DNA from: Psococerastis gibbosa | Lineage: Eukaryota > Arthropoda > Insecta > Psocodea > Psocidae | Assembly (NCBI GenBank): GCA_963971405.1 | Contig: OZ020487.1 | Span: forward strand, 30,489,371 to 30,553,370 | Reading direction: 5' to 3' | DNA length: 64,000 nt | Shown here: positions 8,497 to 43,511 of the stretch, piece by piece | Layout: every line of letters begins with the position of its first letter | Numbering within the stretch: position 1 is the stretch's first letter | Made by a program: the position numbers and the translations under genes | The notes under the pieces: model-generated | Told to the model about the DNA's origin: nothing | Database searches by the model: none | Seen by the model: the letters and a program-made list of their open reading frames with translations, nothing else

Positions 8497-9334
8497 ATAA
8501 TAGGATAGCCATAGCGAATTCATTTGGAGGAGATATACATGTAGGTTGAAACTGTAGACCCGGCAACGCTGCGCCGGTCGCCTGTCCCAACTATGTAAGG
8601 CACACATTAACATTTGGACACACACATTGCCCAAGCCCAACTTGACTTGACAACACTGTTGTATAAGGAGGGTGTCTTTCGCACTGGCATTGCAAATTTG
8701 CAATGCAATAATTAGGGTGACCATCTATACTGTTTTTGGCAGGACCGTACTGTTTCTTGGTGTCTCTGTACTGATACTGTTTTGATTTGCCAAAAACACC
8801 AAAAATATTTTGTCTGGAAAAAAATATGCAGCTTAAAACTGTTCTTTAAATTGAACTAAGATATTACGTTTAGGGGAGACTGGGGCACTTTCGGCAGCGG
8901 GGCAGTTTCAGCAGATGCTGTATTTTAAAAACAATGGTGAATTTGGCGGCTAAAACAAGTTGAATAGTCTGCTGCCACGTTTTAAAATGGCCACATTGTG
9001 TTTTCTTTCCAAATAAACAAGGTAAGTAAGAATTACAAAATATTTTATATTTGAGACAGTGAAATCCTTATTTTTGTCTGGATGCGATTTGGTGACGTGG
9101 CCCTAGTTACTGGAATTAAAAAGTAGCAGTTATTTCCTGCTTTTAAGGAGTTATTTCCGCACCTTTTTAGCATTGTTCTAGTTAACCTATTCTTAATGCC
9201 ATACCGGCAATTCATATCCAAGAAGATGAGGCAATCGGGGCAGATTCGGCACGCAGTATGACGCCCGCCGAAACTGCCCCATGATTAAATTTTGTGATCG
9301 GTATTTTCTTACTACTAAATAATTCCTGTTTCAG

Positions 9335-11749
9335 ATGGTACGCTGTTACAAGAAAAAAACAGGAAGGGCGGAAAAGGATGAGGGGGCGATTTTGAGGGGG
9401 GTGAAGGATATTATACGTGGGGAAAAAAGATCTATTGCAGCCCGCAACTGTGGAATTCCGAGGCAAACTCTCAATTCAAGAATTGATACCTTACTTAAGA
9501 AGTATACAATGTTAGAACTAAAAAGGAAATTTGAGGATTCGGGAAATGAGAGTGATGACGATGAAATGGGTGTGAAACCCAAGAAGGCCAGAGAATTTTC
9601 GTCAAAATATTCAGTTGGTCAGATTTTTAACTCCGAGCATGAGAAAAAAATCGAAGAATATCTAATCGGTTGTGACAGGCTTAACTCTGGACTAACCTAT
9701 AAGCAAATAAGAGAATTGGCCTATGACTATGGCGTCGCATTGAAAATTTCATTGCCAGTGTCATGGCAATCAAACAAAATAGCTGGGATAGATTGGATGA
9801 TCGCTTTCATGAAAAGGCATCCGAAACTAAGTCTCCGGAAGCCTGAGCAATGCAGTGTAGCAAGAGCAGCAGCCTTTAATAAAACTGCAGTCAAGGGTTT
9901 CTTTGATAATTACCTTTTCCTAATGGAAAAATACAAGTTTACTGCAAAGGACATATATAATTTGGATGAAACCGGAATCCAGACTGTCTTGAAGACTGTC
10001 AAAGTTGTGTCAGCTTCAGGGAAAAAGCAGGTCGCTACAGCTTCATCTGCAGAGAAAGGACAGACTGTGACCGTGGTCGGAATAATAAGTGCTGCCGGTT
10101 CAGCAATGCCGCCGGTATTTTTGTACCCCAGGGTACGTGACTTGAATGACTACATTGTTGACGGCGTACCCGGGTCAGTTTCTTTAGGGAGCCCTAAAGG
10201 GTGGATCACGAAGGAAACCTTCATCAATGTTTTATGGCATTTCAAAGAACAATCCAGATGTTCAAAAGACCACCCAATTTTATTAATAGTGGACAACCAT
10301 GAGACCCACATTTCTTTGGCAAGCATTACTTATTGTCGCGATAATGGCATTCACATGCTGACCCTTCCGCCGCACACCTCCCATCGCCTTCAACCCTTGG
10401 ACGTCAGTGTTTATTTCCCTTTCAAAACCTACTGTGCCCAGGCCTTCCAACGCTGGATGTCAAATAACCCCGGCAAGACTATCCGTATGAAAGACATAGC
10501 AAAATTAACCAAAGACAGCTTCTATAAAGGCTTTTCGAGTTCAAACATTATGAGCGGCTTTAAGAAAACCGGACTATGGCCAATAAACGTTGAAGCATTT
10601 ACTGACGATGATTTCGCACCATCTACGATTTGGCATCAACCACCAAGAGAACCGAGTGGATCCGAGACACCATGTTGCAGTAAAACCTTGTCAGAACAAG
10701 AGGAACCACAAGTGGAAGGAGGTGCGTTATCTCCATAGAATAGTTGAGGATCTCATTTGTTAGCAGATGGTTTCGTCTATGTAGGTACCTAATTTGACCC
10801 ACATTTATATACAATTTCCTTTATTTCAGCTTCGACGGCGAAGGAAGTACCTCCAAGAGAACCGAGTGGATCCGAGACACCATGTTGCAGTAAAACCTTA
10901 ACAGAACAAGAGGAACCACAAGTGGAAGAAGGTGCGTTATCTCCATAGAATAGTTGAGGCTCTCATTTGTTAGCAGATGGTTTCGTCTATGTAGGTACCT
11001 AATTTGACCAACATTTATATACAATTTCCTTTATTTCAGCTTCGACACCGAAGGAAAGACCATCAAGGGTACCAATTCTTACGCCAGAGGACGTACGCCC
11101 CCGGCCGCAAGTACAACTGTCCCAACAAAATGGTCCTAAGAGAAGAAAGGTCGGAAAATCGACTATATACACCCTCACGCCAGAAAAAAGTCTTTTGGAA
11201 CTGAAGGAAAAACAAGCCGAAGAAAAAGCGAAGAAAGCATTGGAAAGAGCAAATAAAGCAGAAGAACGTAAGAAGGAAAGAGAACAGAAGAAGAAAGAAA
11301 AAGAACAAAAGAAGAAAGAAAAAGACGAAGGGAGACGAAACATGAAAAGCACTAGAGATGCAGCCAAAGTCAGGTGCAAGAAGCAACTTTTCACAAACTC
11401 AGACTCCAGCGACAGTGACGTGGAAATGGGCATTTTACCGAGTTCGTCTGGAGGAGAGTGGAATGAAGAAGATCCAGAACAAGAAAAAGCAGACCTACCA
11501 GCTATCGAAAATCGCGTAGAGGAGTACGTCGCGGTCAACTATGACGGGACCGTCTTCCCAGGGCAGGTCGTTGCCATTACGGAAAATGGGATTACCGTAA
11601 AGGCAATGAAAAGATGTGGTCGGCTATGGAAATGGCCTGAGAAGGATGACATCTTAAATTATGACTATGTAGATGTAGTAGGGCATCTAAAAACTCCTAC
11701 AAAATTTAGCAAAAGTAGGGAGATATATTTCATACCTGAAATTGATTAA
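9335..11749 (+). CDS. Tigger/pogo-family DDE transposase, spliced, 732 aa
   Basis: Enzyme of the surrounding transposon, expected to bind its ends and cut and rejoin DNA in the nucleus. My model has exons 9335-10721, 10830-10931 and 11040-11749; both 108-bp introns begin GTGCGT and end TTTCAG in phase 1, and all joins stay in frame. The ATG follows a CAG acceptor; a GTAAGT at 9022 suggests a noncoding first exon. Residues 10-55 resemble a psq helix-turn-helix and 94-171 a CENP-B-type one. The catalytic aspartates lie in NLDETG (~210), VDNHETH (~320) and LQPLDV (35 residues later). Exon 3 adds a Lys/Glu-rich coiled coil, then a small domain (VNYDGTVFPG.. to ..WKWPEKDD) resembling a tudor/SH3-like barrel. 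Unspliced message would stop at 467 residues. The family is certain; exons 2-3 are inferred. Confidence 0.88.
10643..11048 (+). repeat. 210-bp tandem duplication of exon plus intron in the Tigger transposase
   Basis: CCAAGAGAACCGAGTGGATC recurs exactly 210 bp apart (10643 and 10853), and the intron acceptors are also 210 bp apart (10829 and 11039). Each unit holds the same exon 3' part, the GTGCGT donor, the intron and the TTTCAG acceptor, with only a handful of mismatches. The result is a 34-codon exon that keeps the frame. Confidence 0.9.
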
Positions 11750-12281
11750 AATTTAATTATAAACTGGAGTGAGTCTTAATTAATTATTTATCATCACGTC
11801 AGATCATGTCTCATGTGAATTCCAATTGATTTGTATAGTGACGAAACTGCCCCAACCCTACGCTGAAAGTGCCCCGCCCCGGGGCACTTTCGGCAATTTG
11901 CCCATTTTTTGGATATTTGGCAATTGCCACGGGGCTTGAGAAATATAAGGTGAAATTTGAAGTGGAAGTAATAATTGAATAAGTAACGGATATAAAAAAT
12001 AAAAGTTTCATGTTAAAAGTGCCTTCATGTGGATTTTCGTCTATACTTACTTTGAAACTGCCGAAAGTGCCCCAGTCTCCCCTAATTACAATACATAATA
12101 AATTTGATTGATGTATGATTAAGTAGTATCTTTTATTTATGATTAGGGTAAAATTAATTCAAAAATAATTCTACACTGGACACAATGAGTATTTGAAAAG
12201 CAAGTTTACACTATATAGAATAGACATTCGTATGATTTACTGTTTTTCAATTTCAAAATTATGGTCACCCTAGCTATAATA

Positions 12282-22693: not shown

Positions 22694-22782
22694 GTGAGAA
22701 AATATTGACAGTAATTGACAACAGATAAGTATTTTAATTTTTTAAACTATTTCAGTTATTTATTTTATTAAAACCGGTAGAG

Positions 22783-24162
22783 ATGAGTCTGAGGTGTTGC
22801 GTAGAATTCTGTTCACAGAAATCGAAATGCGGTGTATCCATGCATATGTTTCCTCCTAATAAAGATCTCAAAGAGGTTTGGTCGCTGCTGGCAGGGAAAC
22901 CGATTAACTACGGTGAAAAATTCAAACGAGCCTCCATTTGTGGTAGACACTTCGCTGACTCTCAGTATCGTGATCTCCACTTTACGAAAAGGCTGATTCG
23001 TGGCTCGATTCCCCGAATTAACTTGCCTGTGAGGATTCTCATAGTCGGGTCAGATGAGTCTTCCCGTACCTATCCAAGTCCACCTGCTAGTTGCAGCCGT
23101 GAAGCAAATAATTCACCTGTTTTTCTTTCCCATGAATTCTTATGTACAACCCCAGAGCCTACTCGCACATCATGCCCCAATACCCTTCCCAATAGTTCTG
23201 TTTCTCCTGCTGGCCCAGTACAACTCGAACCGGATGCAGAAGATGATGGGGTGATTGCCCAGTATCAGCGCACAGCTATGGATTGTGAAGTTTCTTCTTA
23301 CGAAATGGAAAGGACGCCGAAGATAGTCTCCAATGGCGAAGAACAGCATTCATTCGCCTCTGTTGGCGAGAACTTCTCTGATCCTGATTCCGTATGTTAT
23401 ACGGATGTCCAAGGTGACGGAGTTCTCGTTCAGCATGAGAGCACACCTATGGGTTGGGAAGTAACTTCACATGAAATGGAAAGGACGCCAATGACAGTCT
23501 CCAATGCCGAAGAACAGAATTCGTTTGCCTCTGCTGGCGAGAACTTTTCCGTACATTATACGGATGACCATGGAGACGGAGTTATCGCACAGCAAGCTAG
23601 ATTCATGGATACCAATCAATGCAAGACATCGAAACTGAAAGCCCAGCGTAAACTTTTCATCCCTAGTCCACCGAAGAGACGTCGCCTATTAGAAAACAAA
23701 AAGCTGAACCCATTACAGTTGGGATTGATGAAGAAAGACCTTACCCCACGACGGGCTAAGCTTGGAGAAATGGCTCGGGCTTTTCGAACTGGGTACATAC
23801 GTAAGTGCGCTGAGGCCGCTGGTTTGAAGGATAAATTGAAAGATCTGGAGGTACAAGTCAATGAAGCCCTTCAAGACAAGCTATCTCCTCTAGCATTCCA
23901 TATTGTCGAAGGAGAACTGCACAACAGAGGCAGACCAGGCAAGGGCAGAAGATGGAATAACAAGCAAAAAGCACTAGCTGTTGCTTTTTATAAATTAGCA
24001 CCGAGGGCCTACAATGCTATTGCGAAGATGATGTGCCTCCCTAGTAAATCCACGGTTTTGAGTTCCACCCACTCCCGAAATGTGGCCCCTTTCCCTGACA
24101 CCCTGCATATTTGTGGACCGTTACTGCTTTTTCCTTTGCTTGTGTGTTCAGGTCGAAACTAA
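22783..24162 (+). CDS. THAP-domain, P-element-like protein, 459 aa, probably incomplete at the C-terminus
   Basis: Residues 1-84 form a THAP DNA-binding zinc finger: the CCVEFC start, the ICGRHF pair about 45 residues on, an early tryptophan, and SIPRINLP as the closing proline motif. Residues 168-265 hold a 57-residue acidic unit repeated twice (MERTP then GENFS). A basic, helical stretch (PKRRRLLENKK onward) follows. Then KGRRWNNKQKALAVAFYKLAPRAYN appears, the start of the P-element/THAP9 transposase core. After the LPSKST motif (about 24054) the similarity stops, and the last ~35 residues look like read-through. The catalytic core is therefore missing or lies in unseen exons. The gene may be a decayed P-like transposon or a domesticated THAP gene; the upstream splice signals allow the latter. 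The start is the first ATG, just after a possible acceptor. Confidence 0.72.
   Translation: MSLRCCVEFCSQKSKCGVSMHMFPPNKDLKEVWSLLAGKPINYGEKFKRASICGRHFADSQYRDLHFTKRLIRGSIPRINLPVRILIVGSDESSRTYPSPPASCSREANNSPVFLSHEFLCTTPEPTRTSCPNTLPNSSVSPAGPVQLEPDAEDDGVIAQYQRTAMDCEVSSYEMERTPKIVSNGEEQHSFASVGENFSDPDSVCYTDVQGDGVLVQHESTPMGWEVTSHEMERTPMTVSNAEEQNSFASAGENFSVHYTDDHGDGVIAQQARFMDTNQCKTSKLKAQRKLFIPSPPKRRRLLENKKLNPLQLGLMKKDLTPRRAKLGEMARAFRTGYIRKCAEAAGLKDKLKDLEVQVNEALQDKLSPLAFHIVEGELHNRGRPGKGRRWNNKQKALAVAFYKLAPRAYNAIAKMMCLPSKSTVLSSTHSRNVAPFPDTLHICGPLLLFPLLVCSGRN
23242..23590 (+). repeat. Two-copy 171-bp tandem repeat inside the THAP gene
   Basis: ATGGAAAGGACGCC recurs 171 bp apart (23305 and 23476), together with GTCTCCAATG and GCGAGAACTT. 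The repeat keeps the frame and encodes the acidic 57-residue unit. Confidence 0.8.
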
Positions 24163-39485: not shown

Positions 39486-39614
39486 GGTTATGGGCCCAGA
39501 TAAATCGGGAAACCAAGATGTTCCGTAAAATCAATTAAAAAGAAAAATTAAAAATAATAATTAAAATTGTCGCGTGTGCAAAGTGCTTGTGTAACCTAAT
39601 CTTACCAGTACACC

Positions 39615-42600
39615 ATGCACGAAGACGTAAAAATTGAAAAATTAAATGGTCCAAACTACCTCACGTGGAAATTTCAAATAGATGTCATCTTAAAATCGAT
39701 ATATGCGTACGACATTGCAACCGGAACGGAACCTTTACCAAGTATCCTTACCAAGGATAAAAAAGATGATACATCGTGGATAAAAACTGACATAAAAGCT
39801 CAACGACTAATTGTAACCTCAGTGGATAGCAGCCAAATTGTGCATTTACTAACATGTACAACATCAGCCGAAATGTATAAAGCATTAAATGATCTCTACA
39901 ATAAGGACACTCATCAACAAAAATGTTCTCTTCTAACGGATTTTTACAACTTTAAATTGGAAGATGTCAACAAGGGAATTGCTGAAATAAAAATAATTAT
40001 CCATAGACTAGCTTCATTGGGAGAAAAGTTAACAGACGAGATGGTTGTAACAAAGATTGTATCTTCTCTTCCCGAAAAATTCAACGCCTTCAGAAGTGCT
40101 TGGGAGTCAGTCACTGCAAAAGATAAGACGCTTGCCAATCTTTTTTCTCGCCTTCAATTAGAGGACGAACGATGTGGAAACAACACAGTAGCATTCAAAA
40201 CACTAGCCCAAGGTAAAAGTACTCTATCTAATTCTAATTTTAAAAATAAAAATGAACTTTTCTGTACGTATTGCAAATTAAGAAATCATAGGATTGAAAA
40301 ATGTTTTAAAAAAGCTAGAGATGAAAGAAATACGCTTTATTGCGGAATTTGTAAAAAGAGGAATTCGCACCGATCCTCAGAGTGTTTTTTCCGTAACAGA
40401 AATAGAGAAAATGGTGACAGCAATAATAATAAAGTTTTTTTGGTATCTAAAAATTCCAATTACTTTAATAATAATAAAAGTATTAGCTTAGCTGTCGATA
40501 GTGCAGCAAGTAAACATTTAGTTAATAATTTAAATTGTCTTGAGAATAGTAATCCTGCAATATCAAAATTCAGTTTAGCAAAAAAGAATGAATCCTTATT
40601 TGGAACGGCCATAGGAACATTAAAGAGTGAGAGTGTGACATTAAACAATGTAGTTTACGTACCGGAGTTATCTCAAAATCTTCTTTCTGTTAAAAAAATC
40701 ACCGATAAAGGTGGGTTTGTATTATTTTCAAAAGGAAACGTAGAAATTATTAATTCAAAATTCGAAACTGTCATGGAAGGTAAAGAAAATAACGGTTTGT
40801 TCGTTGTTAATTTAAAATATGGTAAAAACCAAAATTTAAAAAATAGAGAAAATATTTTTTCTGTGAATGATTATGACGACATTTATGAATGGCATAGAAA
40901 ATTAGGTCATATTAGTTTTAAAAATTTGCAAAGACTTGCAACAATGTCAGATGGAATAAAAATAACTAAAAATTCTTTAGATATTAAAAATTGTGAAATT
41001 TGTATTAAAGCTCGACATGCTCGTGATCCCTTTAGTGGAAATTTAAAGCGTGCTACTCGAATGCTCGAAATAATTCATAGTGACGTCGAAGGTCCCTTTG
41101 AAATTGAATCTATTGATCAATGCAAATATTATGTATCAATAATTGATGATTTTACGTGTTATAGTGAAGTACATCCTATAAAAGCAAAATCAGATGCAGC
41201 AAATGTTATAAAAAATTTTATTTTGCGAGCCGAAAATGAAAAAGGTTTAAAAGTATGCAGATTTAAATGTGACGGTGGAGGTGAATACCTGCCATTAAAA
41301 CAATGGTTTTATAATAGAGGAATATTTTTTGATGTAACTGCTAGTTATAGTCCTCAAATGAACCCTCGTTCAGAAAGATTAAATCGGACAATTACTGAAA
41401 AAATAAGAAGTTTACTCTTTGATAGTAATGTTAATAAAAATTTATGGAGTGAAGCGGCTAAGACAAGTTGTTTTTTACTTAATCGCAGTCCAACAGTTAA
41501 TAGCAAGGCAACGCCTATAGAAAATTGGACTGGAAAAAGACCAGATTTAAAAAATTTAAAAATTTTTGGTTCTGAAGCTTATGCCAAAATTCTACCTCGT
41601 GTTAAGAAGCTTGATGAAAGATCAAGAAAATTGATATTCGTTGGTTATAATCATAATGGTTATCGTTTGTTTGACCCAAACATTAAAAAGATTGTTATTT
41701 CTAGGGATGTTATTTTTCCTGAAAATTCACTTAAAATTAAAAATAAGCTAAAACCTGAAGAAATGGTAAAACTTGATTTTAATGTTTCAGAATTTTTCAA
41801 GGATTCAGAGTCTGAATCAGACAAGCACCAAGTGAGCCCACGTAGAGTCAATGAATCTGTGGAGGAAATAATCAGTGAAAATGATGCTGACGGTGAGTCT
41901 GAATCAGAACCTGAAACTCCAAAGGAATACCCTTATAAATTAAGAAGTAGAATTAATCTACGGAAACCTGCTACACTTGATGATTGTGAAACTAATTTAA
42001 CTGATCTATTTGATGATAGCGTATATTTAACGTTTGAAGAAGCCGTAAAAGGCAATGAATGTAAAGAATGGGTAGATGCTGTAGAGAAGGAGAAAGAATC
42101 GTTGATTTCTAATAAAACTTGGATTTATATTCCAAAAGCAGAAGCTGAAAATAATAAGATTTTGACTTCTCGCTGGATTTTTCGCAAAAAAGATAATAAT
42201 ACTTTTAAAGCCAGACTCGTTGTAAGAGGTTTCGAACAAGAAAATGGCATAGATTTTACCGATATATTTAGTCCAGTGGTAGATTCAAATAGTTTACGAT
42301 TGTTATTTGCTTTAGCAGCAAAGAAAAAAATGCTAATTGCTTCATTTGATATAAAATCTGCATTTTTAAATAGCGATCTTAATGAGAAAATTTTTATGCA
42401 TATTCCGGAAGGATTTAAAAACGCTAAAAACAAAGACAAAGTATGTCTATTAAAAAAGTCATTGTACGGACTTAAACAATCTCCAGCATTGTGGAATTCT
42501 AAGTTGAATGATTATTTATTATCGATTGGTTTACAGAGATTAAAATCAGATCCTTGTATTTATTGTAATACTGATAAAAGCTTGATAATTTCAATTCATG

Positions 42601-43511
42601 TTGATGATGGATTAATAATAAGTAAAAATGAATTGATGTTGAATGATTTTGTAAAAAAGCTAAGCAAACTTTGCGAAGTTACCTATAACAAAGACATAAA
42701 GAAATATGTAGGTATTGAAATTTTGAGAATTAAAGCTGGTATAAAAATTAGCCAGGAGAAATATGTTGAAAACATGCTTAAAACTTATAATATGTCGGAA
42801 GCAAATTCTGTTAAAACTCCAATATGTAATCAAAAGTCAGATAACAGTAAAAATATATCCTTTCCATACCGCGAAGCAGTCGGTAGTCTCTTATATTGTT
42901 CTACTAAAACACGACCAGATATAACTTTCAGTGTGAATTATGAAAGTCGTTGTATTGAACCTAAAACTGATAATGTTTCCGATGTAAAAAGAACTTTAAG
43001 ATATTTAAAAGGTACAAAGAATTTAGGAATAACTTATAATGGTTCAAATTGTAATAAACTAATTGCATATTCAGATGCAAGTTACGCAGATGATGAAATA
43101 TCTCGGAAAAGTACCACAGGTTTCGTGATTTACTATTGTGGCGGACCTGTAGCTTGGTGTTCAAAGAAACAAAATATTGTAACACTTTCCACTACTGAAG
43201 CTGAATATATAGCAGCTGCAGAATGTCTAAAAATGTGTTTGTTTTTGAAATCTTTAATCCAGGAATTAACTGGTGAAAAATTGGAAATCTTACTATTTGT
43301 TGATAATACTAGTACAATTGAAGTAATGAAAACTGGTTGTGGAAAACGAACAAAGCACATAGATGTAAGATATAAATTTATTACTGATCTAGTAAAGAAC
43401 AAGGTAGTAGAAGTAAAACATGTTCCAAGTAGTGAACAAGCAGCAGATATTTTTACAAAAGCTCTACCTAATTCTTCATTTGAAAAGTTTAGAAAAATGC
43501 TTGTTGATTAA
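39615..43511 (+). CDS. Copia Gag-Pol polyprotein, 1298 aa
   Basis: A single frame carries the parts in Copia order. First is a Gag domain beginning MHEDVKIEKLNGPNYLTWKF (about residues 1-200). Then come one or two zinc knuckles (CTYCKLRNHRIEKC and a second CGIC.. motif, about 217-258). A protease region follows (about 290-390), then an integrase with the GAG-pre-integrase WHRKLGHIS and a core ending near residue 700. Reverse transcriptase is at about 830-1090 and RNase H at about 1155-1290. Integrase before reverse transcriptase separates it from Gypsy-type elements. The length is normal for arthropod Copia elements. It belongs to the element, not the host. Confidence 0.95.
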   Translation: MHEDVKIEKLNGPNYLTWKFQIDVILKSIYAYDIATGTEPLPSILTKDKKDDTSWIKTDIKAQRLIVTSVDSSQIVHLLTCTTSAEMYKALNDLYNKDTHQQKCSLLTDFYNFKLEDVNKGIAEIKIIIHRLASLGEKLTDEMVVTKIVSSLPEKFNAFRSAWESVTAKDKTLANLFSRLQLEDERCGNNTVAFKTLAQGKSTLSNSNFKNKNELFCTYCKLRNHRIEKCFKKARDERNTLYCGICKKRNSHRSSECFFRNRNRENGDSNNNKVFLVSKNSNYFNNNKSISLAVDSAASKHLVNNLNCLENSNPAISKFSLAKKNESLFGTAIGTLKSESVTLNNVVYVPELSQNLLSVKKITDKGGFVLFSKGNVEIINSKFETVMEGKENNGLFVVNLKYGKNQNLKNRENIFSVNDYDDIYEWHRKLGHISFKNLQRLATMSDGIKITKNSLDIKNCEICIKARHARDPFSGNLKRATRMLEIIHSDVEGPFEIESIDQCKYYVSIIDDFTCYSEVHPIKAKSDAANVIKNFILRAENEKGLKVCRFKCDGGGEYLPLKQWFYNRGIFFDVTASYSPQMNPRSERLNRTITEKIRSLLFDSNVNKNLWSEAAKTSCFLLNRSPTVNSKATPIENWTGKRPDLKNLKIFGSEAYAKILPRVKKLDERSRKLIFVGYNHNGYRLFDPNIKKIVISRDVIFPENSLKIKNKLKPEEMVKLDFNVSEFFKDSESESDKHQVSPRRVNESVEEIISENDADGESESEPETPKEYPYKLRSRINLRKPATLDDCETNLTDLFDDSVYLTFEEAVKGNECKEWVDAVEKEKESLISNKTWIYIPKAEAENNKILTSRWIFRKKDNNTFKARLVVRGFEQENGIDFTDIFSPVVDSNSLRLLFALAAKKKMLIASFDIKSAFLNSDLNEKIFMHIPEGFKNAKNKDKVCLLKKSLYGLKQSPALWNSKLNDYLLSIGLQRLKSDPCIYCNTDKSLIISIHVDDGLIISKNELMLNDFVKKLSKLCEVTYNKDIKKYVGIEILRIKAGIKISQEKYVENMLKTYNMSEANSVKTPICNQKSDNSKNISFPYREAVGSLLYCSTKTRPDITFSVNYESRCIEPKTDNVSDVKRTLRYLKGTKNLGITYNGSNCNKLIAYSDASYADDEISRKSTTGFVIYYCGGPVAWCSKKQNIVTLSTTEAEYIAAAECLKMCLFLKSLIQELTGEKLEILLFVDNTSTIEVMKTGCGKRTKHIDVRYKFITDLVKNKVVEVKHVPSSEQAADIFTKALPNSSFEKFRKMLVD

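Follow-up and report, generated by a model that had tools for sequence, protein, structure and literature searches.

Element, predicted gene and superfamily

The window is a 64,000-nt stretch of the Psococerastis gibbosa genome (assembly GCA_963971405.1, contig OZ020487.1, positions 30,489,371 to 30,553,370, forward strand). Positions 8873-12082 of the window are a complete 3,210-bp DNA transposon, located on contig C12 of the 409-Mb host genome. Feature coordinates are collected in Table 1. The empty sites L066 and L067 both carry the two element flanks joined with one TA and without a single letter changed (379 nt), by which the insertion site and the TA duplication are shown. The element is nested in a multi-copy repeat of approximately 350 bp (window about 8712-12277) with AGGGTGACCAT ends. 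For this host repeat 49 matching stretches were listed, among which are both flanks of the window element and some places that appear as two pieces. The 22 bp deleted from the leader of the window copy were present in 7/7 other copies, in two of them with one substitution. Subterminal end-like motifs (GGGGCA..TTC) were seen by eye at 8890-9280 and 11840-12082, two of which flank this private deletion; they are possible transposase binding sites. Further open frames of the window lie at 39600-43511 (1,303 aa), which we take to be a Copia-type polyprotein, and at 22738-24162 (474 aa), which presumably begins like a THAP domain.

Table 1. Features of the element in window coordinates.
Feature	Position	Strand	Basis or remark
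Left TA target-site duplication	8871..8872	.	joined flanks at two empty sites
Left terminal inverted repeat, 25 bp	8873..8897	+	perfect inverse of 12058-12082
22-bp deletion site in 5' leader	9236..9237	.	between GGGGCAG repeats; private to window copy
Exon 1: N-terminal region and DDE catalytic core	9335..10721	+	Pfam DDE_1 match
Unit 1 of 210-bp tandem duplication	10639..10848	+	sequence comparison with unit 2
Intron 1, 108 nt, GT..AG, phase 1 (predicted)	10722..10829	+	donor GAG/GTGCGT (AAG in 7 other copies)
Extra linker exon, 102 nt	10830..10931	+	between the two introns
Unit 2 of 210-bp tandem duplication	10849..11058	+	sequence comparison with unit 1
Intron 2, 108 nt, GT..AG, phase 1 (predicted)	10932..11039	+	donor AAG/GTGCGT
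Exon 3: linker end, K/E-rich stretch, type A C-terminal module	11040..11749	+	homology to relatives
Right breakpoint repeat, 15 nt	11059..11073	+	12/15 identical to 10639-10653
Right terminal inverted repeat	12058..12082	-	perfect inverse of 8873-8897
Right TA target-site duplication	12083..12084	.	joined flanks at two empty sites

The 210-bp tandem duplication over exon end, donor, intron and acceptor, described in an earlier note on this DNA, was confirmed to the base (units 200/210 identical in the window copy). The same holds for the new 34-codon exon (102 nt) between two 108-nt phase-1 introns, and the junctions given for it (10721-10830, 10931-11040 and 10721-11040) are exact. The extra exon is a hybrid of 19 nt like the exon 3 start and 83 nt like the exon 1 end. 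The duplication is positioned in the linker between the catalytic core and a K/E-rich putative coiled coil, labelled as such from its letters. A match as good as that of the breakpoint repeats (12/15) was reached by 14 of 192,669 random pairs within the element.

Conceptual translation gave products of 732 aa (inclusion of the extra exon), 698 aa (skipping), 501 aa (intron 2 retained) and 467 aa (intron 1 retained), the last agreeing with the length proposed before; it keeps the core and is without the K/E-rich stretch and the tail. Frame neutrality also stood, insofar as all splice combinations keep the frame or stop early, but as evidence it is weaker than claimed. Equal intron lengths and phases follow from duplication of a unit with one phase-1 intron, which leaves only the divisibility of the exon length by three to chance, a single one-in-three event. 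Exon 3 looks coding, because it matches C-terminal parts of relatives in long open frames (at most 43% identity among the matches listed). No confirmation was obtained for the description of its end as tudor-like: the 76-residue tail had no Pfam match at E 1 and no significant profile match. Weak Pfam matches of a longer C-terminal piece were to other families, all below cut-off. In a PDB profile search the best matches of the tail were acetolactate synthase (E 0.15), ORC1 (0.31) and PHF20L1 (0.44 and 0.55), none of them significant, and a single-sequence model (pLDDT 39) was too poor for fold search.

Exon 1 matched DDE_1 (PF03184) with an E of 2.3e-17 and 63.6 bits (cut-off 22). The catalytic triad, which we take to be D211, D320 and D356 as picked by known motifs, has DD35D spacing. 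Of the marks of the pogo superfamily, DDE_1, a TA target duplication, 25-bp ends (limit 40 bp) and DD35D were found, and by domain, spacing, ends and TA duplication the element is assigned to this superfamily. It shares the DDE_1 core, DD35D, TA duplication and short ends with the known pogo groups (Tigger, Passer, Fot-like), for which the available text of PMC7386202 gives spacings of DD29-59D and proteins of 300-977 aa, a range that includes 732 aa. It differs in having two predicted introns and no DNA-binding domain recognised above cut-off: the N-terminal HTH_Tnp_Tc5 match reached 15.2 bits (cut-off 22.2), and CENP-B_N, HTH_ABP1_N, BrkDBD and HTH_psq were not found at E 1 in the Pfam search of the predicted protein. 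Tigger elements, according to the available text of PMC9219625, have a Tc5 domain with or without CENP-B_N, DD29-36D and 300-685 aa; the DD35D spacing fits, whereas 732 or 698 aa lie above this range. For Passer elements the available text of PMC9976928 gives DD35D, ends of <30 bp and one frame of 400-500 aa. Spacing and ends agree, whereas the predicted gene is interrupted by introns and its product would have 732 or 698 aa; the retained-intron 467-aa frame alone would fit. Judged by these features, Tigger, Passer and Fot-like are not separable with certainty for the window element. The earlier name 'Tigger transposase' therefore stands as to pogo superfamily and is not established as to Tigger, with Tc5 below cut-off, CENP-B_N not seen and the length above range.

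The word 'intron' is absent from the main text of PMC7386202, and both 'intron' and 'splic' are absent from the main texts of PMC9976928, PMC9219625 and PMC8472432. Literature listings, a narrow basis, contained no account of exon duplication within a pogo element or of tails being swapped among pogo transposases.

Genomic copies and history of the duplication

The earlier note had proposed that other genomic copies be searched for one or two units. At least eight copies were found by DNA search, and 8/8 carry both units; the duplication therefore predates the spread of the copies. A search with the intron sequence gave 16 places, two per copy in eight copies, and a terminal-pattern search (≤3 mismatches) gave 16 ends, 16/16 perfect and none left over. 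These counts are lower bounds at the search sensitivity used. Single-unit copies, fragments, short derivatives and solo ends were not found in the genome by DNA, intron and end searches, nor was a diverged copy of the element family by DNA searches. A tandem duplication creating an in-frame extra exon in a transposase gene is thus well supported. Neither a fresh duplication at this copy nor the birth of an exon at this locus was borne out, as all eight copies have the pair and the ancestral form was not found among them. The 108-nt intron matches solely the element's own 16 intron copies, and a host introner as its source was rejected.

Pairwise substitutions among the eight copies were 0.036-0.36% (gaps uncounted) over the aligned part 9280-12082, with an alignment length of 2,803 nt, or 2,773 nt in pairs with copy C19. 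The pattern is consistent with the element having arrived or burst recently; horizontal transfer is conceivable. The 732- and 698-aa frames are both open in 7/8 copies, and splice sites are intact on both units in 7/8, the exception being C19 (acceptor 2 changed, frameshift near the start, 21-nt deletion in exon 3). At position -3 of donor 1 the window copy has a private G, and 7/7 others have A. Coding changes among the copies were 10 amino-acid-changing and 4 silent, so that no selection on linker or tail is shown among them. The copy at C3:16667341-16672531 contains about 1.95 kb extra between its ends relative to the other copies (length by subtraction), with foldback sequence in its 5' part.

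Ten differences separate the two units of the window copy. Position 10719 is private to this copy and 10750 is variable (A in 3/8, C in 5/8); eight differences remain in all copies, and at one of these, 10690, a single copy shows a third base. The exon part (102 nt) holds seven of the eight and the intron part (108 nt) one (Fisher p 0.03). Six of those in the exon pair up as three adjacent doublets, and 5/8 of all differences lie ≤16 nt from the junction (binomial p 1e-4; as events 3/5, p 0.004; both post hoc). A history of duplication between short imperfect repeats, with errors at the junction and before the copies spread, appears plausible from this distribution. The units might instead derive from unequal exchange between already diverged copies, in which case their 3.8% difference would be older than the duplication. 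The uneven exon and intron counts and the doublets point in this direction, but the clustering fits junction errors equally well and the searches yielded no diverged family member, so we hold this origin to be unlikely. Near-identical tandem repeats are prone to mis-assembly; the same unit-specific differences are nevertheless present in eight insertions at different places, which makes an assembly artefact of the tandem pair hardly conceivable.

In tandem exon duplication of host genes, an exon is copied with its splice sites and is symmetric. The element shows the same adjacent near-identical unit, symmetric exon and copied splice sites, and differs in that the event occurred within a mobile element, by which one duplication is now at eight loci. 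It offers a clean example of exon and intron duplication within a transposon that has recently multiplied and has since taken both to eight sites, where one splice problem can be followed in eight settings. In C19, acceptor 2 is altered naturally, but the frame of that copy is disrupted as well.

Linker variation and predicted splicing

Protein searches of the same genome with exon 1 and with exon 3 gave at least 91 matches each, the eight copies included. The linker was in a single open frame without an intron at 16/16 readable related loci from 11 families (L018, L019, L037, L038, L051-L058, L059, L060, L063 and L064). Outside this count are L017, which another element interrupts, L061, L062 and L065, where the linker is missing or the frame disrupted, loci matching the element flanks, and L028, which is without a relative frame; of the 13 loci L038-L050, L038 alone was read for the linker. 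On a scan of the viral collection, no relatives were confirmed. The nearest catalytic relative among the matches listed, L060, is a broken copy (48% identity, 160/331) with a linker of 33 residues. Since the relatives' linkers, including that of L060, are in one open frame, the intron was probably gained in the lineage of the window element. Parsimony alone speaks for gain, and intron loss in the other lineages is possible; in plant CACTA transposases intron loss prevailed, according to the available text of PMC4158355.

Using Tandem Repeats Finder, linker repeats were detected in 4/10 related families, L059, L051/L052, L018/L019 and L037, and the periods found in them were 63/21, 18, 132/54/30 and 60 nt. 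Multiples of three are demanded by the open frames. L018 and L019, which belong to one family, differ in repeat number. The K/E-rich stretch also contains tandem repeats (L037, L038, L051/L052, L057 and the window element; Tandem Repeats Finder), and the linker is therefore not the sole repeat-prone part. The linker is thus one recurrent place of in-frame tandem duplication, and the window event is one such duplication with an intron inside. In-frame tandem repeats were also seen by eye in the L076 linker.

We consider it fairly probable that the linker was lengthened, carrying the intron along, before the element spread, and that the 732-aa protein is the default product of a recently multiplied autonomous pogo transposon; confidence in this explanation is lowered by the repeats in the K/E-rich stretch. 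The starting point would be a cut-and-paste autonomous pogo transposon with one intron in the flexible linker that leads from the core to the K/E-rich coiled coil. Tandem duplication between imperfect 15-bp repeats would have copied the linker with its intron ahead of the spread, resulting in a second intron and the 34-codon hybrid exon. Each intron would be removed on its own, which is the most likely course because both are short and have near-identical splice sites. The main product would be the 732-aa enzyme, with a linker of 76 residues instead of 42 and the middle exon as an extra spacer, and the two-unit element would then have multiplied very recently. The sequences directly show the anatomy, the frames, the number of copies found, the presence of both units in these and the homology of exon 3. 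Splicing, default inclusion, the spacer role, the order of events and present activity are all inferred, splicing from the splice-site letters with site strength judged by eye. A spliced genomic copy as witness of splicing was not found in the genome within 3 mismatches.

The P-element transposase is unrelated to that of the window. Both genes have a late intron whose retention would truncate the C-terminus (PMC7776569, available text), and the window element differs in its duplicated intron and exon. By analogy, inclusion, skipping and retention might yield a full enzyme together with a shortened regulator. All splice combinations would be compatible with this, retention would give a protein with the core and minus the K/E-rich stretch and tail, and intron-3 retention in the Drosophila P element is a precedent in the available text of the same source (PMC7776569). 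Any single intron, however, would truncate on retention, so that the duplication adds nothing in this respect. Moreover, donor and acceptor letters are the same for both introns in 6/8 copies, which favours plain removal (unequal letters were found in the window copy, donor 1, and in C19, acceptor 2). Regulated isoforms therefore seem improbable. A gene consisting of the 467-residue frame alone, with the 3' part unspliced or a relic, is very unlikely. Exon 1 by itself does contain the DDE core, and Passer transposases measuring 400-500 aa are known (PMC9976928, available text), but the 3' frame is open in 7/8 copies and in related families a tail of this kind shares one frame with the core.

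C-terminal modules and catalytic cores

The last ~76 residues of the window protein are a type A module, and type A tails form one clade in the tail tree (support 99/99; 7/17 rows). In this tree 1/14 inner branches is starred (the A/B split) and long branches are present. All rows come from one genome, the tail groups were named after seeing the data, and the rows labelled with profiles A and B include those used to build them (four and three, respectively). Type B is loosely defined and possibly comprises more than one group; L054 is partial. The tail tree was calculated without L054 (broken), L055 (PHD-like), L061 and L071, and the L018 tail was taken from L068, which is the same element. 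The catalytic tree is without L073 and L078, which were missed by the motif filter and both have type B tails. Near copies (L019, L052, L053, L056, L058, L070, L074 and L075) and the broken L062 and L065 are not in the trees.

Type A families are scattered on the catalytic tree (18 rows), and holding them together was rejected (p 5.8e-8). The window core groups with L060, L037, L038 and L054 (97/98), kin labelled type B, the L060 tail fitting profile B weakly (12.6 bits, vs 9.0 for A). By these labels the window element has a type A tail, which the kin closest to it on the catalytic tree lack. That tail shares 54% identity with the one of L059 (41/76), with 24% identity between the cores (80/330), and the pair has 86/82 support in the tail tree. 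Holding together the tails of the window element, L060, L037 and L038 was rejected (p 0.012), as was holding together those of L018, L079 and L057 (p 0.007). A minimum of 7 changes of tail label is needed on the catalytic tree, and shuffled labels gave a mean of 7.0 (206/300 shuffles ≤7). Without L055, 6 changes compare with 6.0 for shuffled labels, and without L055 and L071 with 5.5. Over 105 pairs, core identity did not correlate with tail identity (rho -0.10, p 0.30); among the 14 pairs that include the window element, rho was -0.52 (p 0.059). The C-terminus of L055 is a PHD-like finger (21.3 bits, cut-off 24).

These observations may be explained by pogo cores trading tails (type A, type B, PHD-like) by recombination through the K/E-rich stretch and varying their linkers by repeats, a reading that we put forward tentatively and with slightly more doubt than confidence. 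It would take in the duplicated intron-bearing linker of the window element as one instance of linker variation. Alternatively, an ancestral A tail might have turned rapidly into B-like tails in several lineages. That the tail swap came about by exon shuffling at the intron was rejected: immediately past intron 2 the sequence can still be matched to the fossil relative L060 (19/34), and the tail switch therefore lies downstream of that stretch. Should tail trading be true in other genomes, the C-terminal end of pogo transposases would evolve separately from the catalytic end.

Loci in the tail pattern are window 11400-11749, L018, L051, L055, L057, L059, L060, L063, L064, L069, L072, L076 and L079. 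In the related family L061, a candidate intron (GTGAGT ... TTTTTCCAG) was noted in another position than in the window element, from about 1721 on, just before the type B tail.
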